Source: an uncultured Bacteroidota bacterium (lineage in GTDB: Bacteria; Bacteroidota; Bacteroidia; NS11-12g; UBA955). From it: a stretch of 43,475 nt of DNA. The DNA is taken from contig CALMKH010000215.1 of the NCBI GenBank assembly GCA_937867025.1, forward strand, positions 1-43,475. The letters are read 5' to 3'. A program made the position numbers and the translations under genes. Shown piece after piece: positions 1 through 3,279 of this stretch (position 1 is the stretch's first letter; each line of letters begins with the position of its first letter). The notes beneath the pieces were generated by a model. That model searched no databases, was not told the origin of the DNA, and saw only the letters and a program-made list of their open reading frames with translations.

Positions 1-1087
1 GCGTAATGTCGTCCCTGTCGGTCCACGAAAAATCGATGTCGAAATCCGGGGCATTCGTGCGGTTCTCATTGATGAACCTTTCAAAGTAAAGATCGAGCTC
101 TATGGGGTCCACATCCGTTATGCGCAGCAGGTAGGCTATAATGCTGTTGGCCCCGCTTCCCCTGCCTACATAATAATAATTTTTTTCCCTCGCATACCGG
201 ACAATATCCCAGTTGATCAGGAAATAAGAAGCAAACTGCATTTTTTCTATGACCGCCAGTTCTTTTTCAACTCTTGCCTTTACTTCGTCCGAAAGATCAG
301 GATAACGATATTGAAGGTTTTTTTCACATTCCTGCTTCAGGAATTCCATATCGTTTTCGCCTTCAGGCCTGAAATGTTTTTTGTTCTTGTTCGTCAGCTT
401 ACCGTATGTAAAATCAATGGAGCAGTTCTTCAACAGGCGCTCTGTGTTATCAATAATAAAAGGAAACGCGCGGTATGCCGCATACAATTCATCTTTCGGC
501 AGCATGATTTCAGATCCCAGGGCCTGCTGTTCGCGGCCAAGCTTGCTCAGCAGGGTGTTGGCATCAATGGCCCTCAACAAACGATGGGCATTATAATGCA
601 GCTGCCCGCCAAACGATACCGTATGCAGCGCTACTACTTTCCCTGGTTGATTCCTGGCACGCAGGAAGGGCCATTGCACAAGATCCTTTATATCAATTCC
701 TATGAATTCATGATCTCTCAGTGCCCATCCTTTATATGCAGACTGGGGATACACAATATAAGCGTGATTGAATTCGGGGGCGACAGGATCAAACGGTATT
801 CCCTCGTGAAGATGCCTGGACAAATGCTCGTTCAGCTCCCTGAAACCCTCATTATTCCTGGCAATGCCTACGTACTGCTGCTGAGCGTTGTTACGGAAGT
901 CTATCCCTGCCAGAGCCTTTAAAGATTTTTCTTTTGCAAGCCTTATTGTCTCCAGGCAGGCCGACGTATTATTGATATCGGTTAGCACAAATTCATTGTA
1001 CCCTTTAGACTGCACTTCGTTCAGCAGGCGCTCTACGGAAAATGTGCCGTAGCAAAAACTGTAATAGGTATGACAATTCAGCAGCAT
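1..1087 (-). CDS. dnaE: DNA polymerase III alpha subunit, short DnaE type (5' part only)
   Basis: The reverse strand is open from an ATG at 1087 to the left edge (about 362 codons). It is absent from the ORF track because it has no stop in the window. It begins MLLNCHTYYSFCYGT, a PHP-domain start. Further on it has a GRGSGANSIIAYLLRI segment and, near the edge, PDFDIDFSW, which carries the two-aspartate catalytic motif of C-family polymerases. These spacings suit the compact DnaE (about 1000 residues) that is often paired with dinB in Bacteroidota rather than the longer replicative enzyme. The ATG overlaps the dinB stop as TGATG, so the two genes are almost certainly translationally coupled. 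Inferred role: error-prone lesion bypass with DinB. Total length and the C-terminus cannot be seen. Confidence 0.93.
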   Translation of the reverse strand, partial: MLLNCHTYYSFCYGTFSVERLLNEVQSKGYNEFVLTDINNTSACLETIRLAKEKSLKALAGIDFRNNAQQQYVGIARNNEGFRELNEHLSRHLHEGIPFDPVAPEFNHAYIVYPQSAYKGWALRDHEFIGIDIKDLVQWPFLRARNQPGKVVALHTVSFGGQLHYNAHRLLRAIDANTLLSKLGREQQALGSEIMLPKDELYAAYRAFPFIIDNTERLLKNCSIDFTYGKLTNKNKKHFRPEGENDMEFLKQECEKNLQYRYPDLSDEVKARVEKELAVIEKMQFASYFLINWDIVRYAREKNYYYVGRGSGANSIIAYLLRITDVDPIELDLYFERFINENRTNAPDFDIDFSWTDRDDIT

Positions 1088-2352
1088 CAGTCTTCTGTTA
1101 ATTCAGGGGTTGTGGTTTCATTGTTGGCTGGGATAAGGCCGGTTTTAATGCCTTCCTTTGATCTTGCCGATCTGGTCAAACCGTTGAATGCATTAAAATC
1201 ATGCATTTCAAAATCTCTTCCTACCGCCCGGCTGATAGCATCCTGCCCATATCTTTTTCTTATCCTGTCCATCGCCTCGTACAACTGTATCTGCTCGGCA
1301 GTTTCTTCAAAGAGATTGTATTGATGTCCGCCCTGGACAAGATGGCTGAACTTAATGCCTACAAGACGTATAAGCATCCTTTTCTGGTAAAGCCTGTCGA
1401 ACAGGTGCTGCACTTTTTCGATCAGCACATGATCGAGCGAAGTATATGGGATGCGGGCCTGCATGGTATAGGTGTTAAAATCGGAATAGCGGATTTTCAC
1501 CGTAACGCATGATGTGAGTTTGTTTTCGCTCCGCATCTGGAACGCGAGCTTTTCGGTCATGCCCGTCAGAATGCCTTTCAGCCCTTTGACGTCTATGGTG
1601 TCTTTTTCAAATGTGCGTTCCGTGGACATGGACTTCCGTTCGGAATACGGAATGACGGGTGAATTATCAATCCCATTGGCTTTTCTCCAGATCAGGCTGC
1701 CGTTTTCTCCCAGCACCTGTTGCATCAGCTCACGGGGCATTTCCTGGAGGGTTTTTATCCATATGATACCCATGTCGCGCAGCAAGGTGTAAGTTTTATC
1801 GCCCACCATCGGAATTTTCCTGATGGATAAAGGCGCCAGGAATTCCTTTTCCGCTCCTGTCTCAATCTGTCTCTGACCGTTCGGTTTGGCCTCGCCCGTT
1901 CCTACTTTTGATACTGTTTTATTGGCAGACAGGGCAAATGATATAGGCAGGTTTGTTTCCTTAATGATCTTTTGCCTGAGATCGGTAGCCAGCTTATAAC
2001 AACCGAAAAAACGATCCATGCCTGTCAGGTCAATATAAAATTCATCAATAGAGGTTTTTTCATACAGCGGAACTTTTTCACTTATAATCTCCGTGACCAT
2101 GTCCGAATATTTGCTGTATTCCCCCGTATCGCCTCTGACAATAATCGCTTCGGGGCATAATTGCCTGGCCATTTTCATGGGCATGGCAGAATGGATGCCG
2201 AATTCACGGGCTTCATAGCTGCACGAGGCTACCACTCCCCTGTCGCTTGTGCCCCCTACAAGAACCGGCCTGCCTTTCAAATCAGGCCGCTTTAATCGTT
2301 CCACGGAAACAAAAAATGAATCCAAGTCAATATGTACAACCTGCCTGTCCAT
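1087..2352 (-). CDS. dinB: Y-family DNA polymerase IV
   Basis: 421 residues. The palm and fingers carry the Y-family signatures: HIDLDSFFVSVE near residues 8-18 with the first metal-binding aspartate, SYEAREFGI, and TSIDEFYIDLTG near residue 100 with the catalytic Asp-Glu pair. Helix-hairpin-helix and little-finger regions follow. The length is slightly above classic Pol IV (about 350-400) because of a tail after the little finger. The role is translesion synthesis in the cytoplasm. The start is supported by a strong AGGAGGT Shine-Dalgarno at 2364-2370, which is unusual in this phylum. It is transcribed away from the LexA-like gene and runs directly into dnaE, so regulation by that repressor is likely. 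No clear -7 element was found on this strand in the 168-bp divergent region. Confidence 0.95.
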   Translation of the reverse strand: MDRQVVHIDLDSFFVSVERLKRPDLKGRPVLVGGTSDRGVVASCSYEAREFGIHSAMPMKMARQLCPEAIIVRGDTGEYSKYSDMVTEIISEKVPLYEKTSIDEFYIDLTGMDRFFGCYKLATDLRQKIIKETNLPISFALSANKTVSKVGTGEAKPNGQRQIETGAEKEFLAPLSIRKIPMVGDKTYTLLRDMGIIWIKTLQEMPRELMQQVLGENGSLIWRKANGIDNSPVIPYSERKSMSTERTFEKDTIDVKGLKGILTGMTEKLAFQMRSENKLTSCVTVKIRYSDFNTYTMQARIPYTSLDHVLIEKVQHLFDRLYQKRMLIRLVGIKFSHLVQGGHQYNLFEETAEQIQLYEAMDRIRKRYGQDAISRAVGRDFEMHDFNAFNGLTRSARSKEGIKTGLIPANNETTTPELTED

Positions 2353-2473: not shown

Positions 2474-2504
2474 TTGCAATTTACTAAAATTTTTAGTAGT
2501 TTTG
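2474..2504 (+). promoter_or_regulatory. Bacteroidota-type promoter of the LexA-like gene
   Basis: A TTG at 2474-2476 is followed after 20 bases by TAGTTTTG (2497-2504), matching the -7 consensus TAnnTTTG. The predicted transcription start is near 2510, inside the second palindrome and only about 10 bases from the first ATG. The promoter overlaps the first palindrome, so a bound repressor would block it. Confidence 0.6.
2482..2498. promoter_or_regulatory. LexA-like operator 1 (17-bp palindrome)
   Basis: TACTAAAATTTTTAGTA is a perfect inverted repeat around one central base. It overlaps the spacer and the start of the -7 element. It shares the CTAAA/TTTAG half-sites with the next palindrome, with centres 23 bp apart, close to two helical turns. 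It is inferred to be bound by the adjacent HTH-S24 protein. Confidence 0.6.
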
Positions 2505-2521
2505 TGCTAAATTTTTTAGCA
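2505..2521. promoter_or_regulatory. LexA-like operator 2 (17-bp palindrome at the start codon)
   Basis: TGCTAAATTTTTTAGCA has perfect 7-bp arms around three bases. It has the same CTAAA/TTTAG half-sites as operator 1. Its last base is the A of the first possible ATG, so it covers the predicted transcription start. Confidence 0.6.
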
Positions 2522-3279
2522 TGAGTTTAATTTCAATGAATATCAAGCATTTGCGTCAACTTAGAGGTTGGTCGCAATTGCAATTGGCAGATGAATTGAA
2601 CATCAGCAGGGCAAGAATAGGCTCTTATGAAGAGGAACGGTGCGAGCCCTCCATCGATATCCTGGTGAAAATTTCCGCCCTGTTTCACATCGCTGTTGAT
2701 GCGCTTGTTAAATGCGATCTCAGGAAATTCAACCTGGAAAATATGATCAAAGTAGGCGAAAACCGTCTTTTATTTCCCATCATGGTGGACAAGGGAAATA
2801 ACGATCAGGTAGAAGTAGTGACGGTGAAAGCCTCTGCCGGCTACCTGAACGGTTATGCAGATCCGGAATATATACAGAGCCTTCCCCTTATGAATCTCCC
2901 CTTCAGGGTAACCGGCAAACACAGGGCCTTTCCCATTAAAGGGGATTCTATGCCTCCGCTCAGAAACGGTTGCTTTGTCATAGGAAAATATATTGAATCG
3001 ATACGCGACATCAGGGACGGAACTACCTATGTCCTGATCACCAGGGACGAAGGTGTGGTCTATAAACGTGTTTACCGGAAAGAAAATGCCCTGGAGCTGC
3101 ATTCGGATAACCGCGATTATCAGCCTTACACCGTGAAGAACTCCGATATACTTGAATTATGGGAATTTGTCTGTACCCTTAACATATCCGACACGAAAGA
3201 AGAAGAACTTAACCTTGGCAGTATTATGGATATGCTGCGAAGCATGAGGGTGGAAATAGAAAGCATCCGGAGCAGGTAG
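2521..3279 (+). CDS. LexA-like repressor: HTH_3 (XRE) plus S24 peptidase
   Basis: 252 residues. An XRE helix-turn-helix spans about residues 8-60 (RGWSQLQLADELNISRARIG). A linker with an Ala-Gly pair (KASAGYL) follows, which is a plausible self-cleavage site. The S24 peptidase fold has a Ser in IKGDSMPP and a Lys in VVYKRVYR as the likely dyad. This is the architecture of phage CI-like and XRE-type LexA analogues, not the winged-helix LexA of Escherichia coli. A second in-frame ATG at 2536 (MNIKHLRQLRG) fits the HTH family better and would leave operator 2 wholly upstream, so the start is uncertain. Divergence from dinB-dnaE and the twin operators point to an autorepressor that controls the mutagenesis cassette. 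Confidence 0.9.
   Translation: MSLISMNIKHLRQLRGWSQLQLADELNISRARIGSYEEERCEPSIDILVKISALFHIAVDALVKCDLRKFNLENMIKVGENRLLFPIMVDKGNNDQVEVVTVKASAGYLNGYADPEYIQSLPLMNLPFRVTGKHRAFPIKGDSMPPLRNGCFVIGKYIESIRDIRDGTTYVLITRDEGVVYKRVYRKENALELHSDNRDYQPYTVKNSDILELWEFVCTLNISDTKEEELNLGSIMDMLRSMRVEIESIRSR

Follow-up and report, generated by a model that had tools for sequence, protein, structure and literature searches.

Immediately upstream of a repressor gene in the genome of an uncultured Bacteroidota bacterium, two palindromes with matching half-sites lie side by side, raising the question of whether they constitute the SOS box of this lineage or an operator private to the gene cassette in which they are found, both of which had been put forward in a first-pass annotation of the DNA sequence. 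The contig (CALMKH010000215.1 of assembly GCA_937867025.1), analyzed over its whole length of 43,475 nucleotides and referred to here as the window, carries the repressor gene, denoted lexA, on the forward strand, and a dinB gene followed by a dnaE-like gene on the opposite strand. Here, we describe the geometry and conservation of the two palindromes, named O1 and O2, the protein that is predicted to bind them, and the genes that they might control. Taken together, the sequence comparisons indicate that O1 and O2 are very probably tandem SOS boxes through which the non-canonical Bacteroidota LexA encoded downstream would repress its own gene, with repression predicted to be relieved by cleavage of the protein at Ala106-Gly107.

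Twin palindromes upstream of lexA

O1 (TACTAAAATTTTTAGTA; positions 2482-2498, core CTAA-N5-TTAG at 2484-2496), delineated by its symmetry, by strict matching in the genome and by comparison with relatives, is a perfect 17-bp palindrome centered at 2490. O2 (TGCTAAATTTTTTAGCA; 2505-2521, core at 2507-2519) is a 17-bp palindrome with a single central mismatch, centered at 2513; the two centers are 23 bp apart, and a gap of 6 bp (2499-2504) separates the boxes. Both share the half-sites CTAAA-N3-TTTAG, that is, CTAA-N5-TTAG. Direct reading of the sequence agrees with the first-pass description of two 17-bp palindromes with the same half-sites and centers 23 bp apart. The spacing of N5-7 that had been assigned to the five-base half-sites is wrong, the actual spacer being N3, and a search with CTAAA-N5-7-TTTAG would therefore miss both O1 and O2; the wider form CTAAA-N7-TTTAG has no exact match in the window.

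Conservation among relatives

The lexA gene is present in 10 of the 17 genomes of the genus, counting the one that contributed the window, and the other nine copies are 73-79% identical. A scan of public genomes yielded 28 orthologue records at 64-79% identity, several of which probably represent the same genomes. Alignment of the orthologous upstream regions, proposed earlier as a check, showed that the palindromes are conserved: O2 is a strict match in 26 of the 28 records and has one mismatch in the remaining 2, and O1 is located exactly 23 bp 5' of O2, with no more than one mismatch in 26 records and two mismatches in the other 2. No O1-like site was detected in these records at any other tested distance from O2. 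The usual state among the relatives is one perfect box accompanied by one that is off by a single base, and the window is the sole case, among the records compared, in which both boxes are perfect matches to strict CTAA-N5-TTAG.

The boxes are absent from L085, a more distant homologue (~51% identical), and CTAA-N5-TTAG is likewise absent from homologues of ~40% identity in other genera of the family, which may not be orthologous. Upstream of a set of homologues from other genera (L021-L034, ~41% identical), TTGACAA/TTGTCAA is repeated, with one copy ending at the ATG (TTGTCAATTTTTTTAACAATG), and these repeats are possibly a diverged operator.

Neighboring genes and the predicted regulon

The dinB gene (1087-2352, reverse strand) encodes a Y-family DNA polymerase IV (PF00817 and PF11799, with NCBIfam PRK02406.1 above the cut-off), and no second Y-family polymerase was detected in this genome. 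The dinB stop overlaps the start of the dnaE-like gene (1-1087, reverse strand), which encodes PHP and DNA polymerase III alpha domains and runs off the window. In most relatives, dinB is divergent from lexA and lies 77 to 631 bp away. No further box was found near the start of dinB, either in the window or in the relatives, and no dinB promoter was recognized in the window. It is plausible that O1 and O2 also control the divergent dinB-dnaE operon, most clearly in L062, L079 and L080, where the intergenic region spans just 77-91 bp.

Away from this locus, a strict box is located 48 bp 5' of a radical-SAM, splB-like gene in the same genome. The splB gene was found in 7 genomes of the genus, this one included, and the box occupies position -48 in all of them, as a strict match in 3 and with one mismatch in 4. 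In the splB promoter of one of these genomes (L090, from G019), one-mismatch boxes are found at both -48 and -25, again 23 bp apart. All 7 genomes with splB also carry lexA, and splB was found in none of the 7 genomes without lexA (Fisher p = 0.01, a value obtained from draft genomes of related species, uncorrected for kinship and with soft absences). Seven of the 17 genomes of the genus (G004 and G011-G016) lack both genes; the pattern looks as if lexA and splB had been gained or lost together as a module.

The recA gene, upstream of which the first-pass annotation had suggested looking, was found to have no box in this genome, and the regulon would therefore be smaller than in most published members of the group. 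The best explanation of these observations is a very small predicted regulon that comprises lexA, splB and, probably, the divergent dinB-dnaE. A more speculative proposal, which we consider possible but somewhat doubtful, is that the SOS response of this lineage has shrunk to lexA, splB and dinB-dnaE, and that the fixed 23-bp pair of lexA, with one box normally perfect and the other weakened by one base, serves as a lambda-like switch for cooperative autoregulation.

Another promoter with twin boxes, again spaced 23 bp apart, was detected in Bacteroidetes bacterium UKL13-3 (L098; CP012155.1, G070:C1:2093694-2093733). This promoter has the same -33 region as the lexA promoter, and it precedes not lexA but a gene for a membrane protein that, by eye, is possibly glycosyltransferase-like.

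The context of the boxes bears directly on the strongest competing explanation, namely, that O1 and O2 are an operator private to the lexA-dinB-dnaE cassette. In this case, the repressor would act on nothing but its own divergent promoter region, in the manner of a phage-style or mobile self-regulating switch, and would play no broader part in SOS. Such an operator would account for the location of 2 of the 3 intergenic strict boxes of the genome at lexA, for the lack of a box at recA and for the divergent placement of dinB in most relatives. However, the twin boxes are kept in L068, L071, L072, L074, L078, L083 and L084, where no dinB was found beside lexA, and hence belong to lexA rather than to the cassette; the unlinked splB carries the same box wherever it occurs in the genus; and both the motif and the protein match a published SOS regulator. 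We accordingly regard the private operator as improbable. Of the two possibilities raised at the outset, that of a lineage SOS box is supported, given that the motif is the published CTAA-N5-TTAG, is kept upstream of lexA orthologues and recurs before splB; the private operator is not supported, as it conflicts with the persistence of the pair next to other neighbors and with the box at splB.

The repressor

The product of lexA (2521-3279, forward strand; 252 aa) is a non-canonical LexA, a repressor that combines HTH_3 and Peptidase_S24 domains. In a Pfam scan, HTH_3 (PF01381) spans residues 8-60 (E 3.9e-11) and Peptidase_S24 (PF00717) spans residues 102-208, over the cut-off, and the winged-helix LexA domain (PF01726) gave no match. 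The description of the downstream gene as LexA-like holds, with both domains, the Ala-Gly cleavage site and the Ser-Lys dyad all found; Ala106-Gly107, Ser143 and Lys182 are invariant across 27 sequences. A structure model of the repressor, which has low overall confidence (pLDDT 64, pTM 0.44) and was used for single domains only, contains five N-terminal helices, and its S24 part superposes on LexA C-domains at ~2.5-3 Å. Judging by its domains, catalytic residues and motif, the repressor appears to belong to the non-canonical Bacteroidetes LexA family.

That O1 and O2 are bound by some regulator other than the adjacent repressor is highly unlikely. The repressor is the only S24 protein found in this genome, with no other such protein, for example UmuD, detected; the box accompanies lexA while gene neighborhoods change; and the motif is tied to the family of this repressor phylum-wide and is bound in vitro by a family member (PMC8565304). 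The adjacent repressor is almost certainly the protein that would bind O1 and O2.

The lexA promoter

A -33 element of the repressor promoter, TTG (2474-2476, forward strand), was recognized by reading the sequence, and TTGCAA is kept in the close orthologues. The -7 element, TAGTTTTG (2497-2504, forward strand; consensus TAnnTTTG), is also kept in orthologues, with the consensus and placement taken from PMC9723704. In Flavobacterium sigma-A promoters, the -7 element is placed at -12 to -5 (PMC9723704); by analogy, the transcription start of lexA is predicted to lie within O2, at about 2509. Orthologues share the ATG at 2521 as their start codon, so that, given the predicted start, the lexA leader would be about 12 nt long. 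O1 occupies the interval between the -33 TTG and the -7 element, and the latter lies mostly inside the gap between O1 and O2. The earlier statement that the palindromes cover the -7 element, the transcription start and the first ATG holds for the predicted start and the A of the ATG, which O2 overlies, and in part for the -7 element. Just 5' of O1, the sequence AAAAAACCG(C/T)TTGCAA (2466-2476) shows almost no variation in the closest orthologues and might represent an upstream A-tract element of the lexA promoter.

Inverted repeats that are followed by an ATG, the second of them overlapping the start codon, could also be read as an RNA-level element, either a leader hairpin masking the start codon or a terminator. 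Against this stand the predicted start near 2509, with which the left arm of O2 would not be fully transcribed and neither would O1, the preservation of the DNA dyad CTAA/TTAG in both arms, and the arrangement in 4 relatives, where the leader has 10 extra bp and O1 and O2 keep their place with the promoter rather than with the ATG; the probability that we assign to an RNA element is minimal.

Rarity of the motif

Strict CTAA-N5-TTAG has 8 matches in the 3.69-Mb genome, namely, O1 and O2, 1 before splB and 5 within reading frames. With so few matches genome-wide, the expectation for the 168-bp dinB-lexA intergenic region is ~0.0004 strict sites, compared to 2 observed. No other pair of boxes at the 23-bp spacing with fewer than 3 mismatches was identified elsewhere in the genome. 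With a motif matrix built from the sites of the relatives only, O1 scored 24.9 and O2 24.4, and the highest score elsewhere in the 43-kb window, at a position within a coding frame, was 10.3. When up to 2 mismatches were allowed genome-wide, the number of matches was not above that for the reversed pattern, and no further boxes were therefore added.

Many imperfect palindromes arise in AT-rich intergenic sequence, but a chance origin of O1 and O2, the odds of which are vanishingly small given the excess of strict sites over expectation, the invariant 23-bp spacing, and the mean information content of 1.6 (O1) and 1.8 (O2) bits per base compared to 0.2 further upstream (24 non-redundant sequences), is refuted by the conservation of the boxes in relatives.

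Proposed mechanism

Under the preferred interpretation of O1 and O2 as tandem SOS boxes, one LexA dimer on O1 would cover the spacer between the -33 and -7 elements, and a second dimer on O2 would cover the start site and the start codon, so that RNA polymerase would be excluded by steric repression. The 23-bp distance between centers corresponds to ~2.2 helical turns, which would bring the two dimers onto almost the same face of the DNA and make contact between them possible, as in lambda CI. Upon DNA damage, RecA filaments would trigger self-cleavage of LexA at Ala106-Gly107, freeing the promoter.

Comparison with known systems

Canonical LexA shares with the repressor described here the S24 domain as well as RecA-triggered derepression and autoregulation, both predicted in our case, but differs in its boxes (CTGT-N8-ACAG in E. 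coli and CGAAC-N4-GTTCG in Bacillus) and in its winged-helix domain, which is unrelated to the HTH_3 domain found here. Lambda CI is closer in architecture, with an HTH_3-type DNA-binding domain joined to an S24 domain, and its operators are neighboring 17-bp sites about two turns apart. In contrast to lambda CI, the repressor in the window is chromosomal, its predicted regulon includes a conserved SOS gene, the operator sequence is different and a third operator was not seen.

The closest counterpart is found in a Bacteroidetes-exclusive family of CI-like repressors with HTH_3 and S24 domains, which includes a group that binds CTAA-N5-TTAG (Sanchez-Osuna 2021, PMC8565304). As reported there, binding by this group in EMSA requires both dyads and the spacer length, the regulator binds its own promoter, and expression is induced by mitomycin C; the published regulon takes in splB, a core gene, together with dinB, recA and umuDC, several promoters have at least 2 boxes, and regulon size shrinks in some Bacteroidetes clades. 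The Pontibacter actiniarum system (WP_025606010.1) shares with the one described here the motif and its spacer, the HTH_3-S24 architecture, the Ala-Gly site and the Ser-Lys dyad, as well as boxes in its own promoter, splB in the regulon and multiple boxes per promoter, whereas the regulon predicted here is smaller and recA lacks a box. PMC8565304 also covers a LexA paralogue of Elizabethkingia anophelis, which belongs to the same family and is encoded opposite an error-prone polymerase gene, with both genes induced by mitomycin C; its box, TTAC-AAATT-GTAA, has the half-sites TTAC/GTAA rather than CTAA/TTAG.

Because both the motif and the repressor family have already been published, O1 and O2 add a well-conserved case to a known class of SOS boxes and do not constitute a new kind of operator. 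The minor new details are the fixed 23-bp doublet at lexA, which is not described for the published group in the available part of PMC8565304, and the combination of one perfect box with one that is off by one, with both perfect in the window alone. The comparison extends a known SOS box, together with its repressor, to an uncultured Bacteroidota lineage and defines how the operators are arranged at the lexA promoter in many relatives; the small predicted regulon could serve to show how SOS control contracts when autoregulation and a pair of lambda-like operators are retained.
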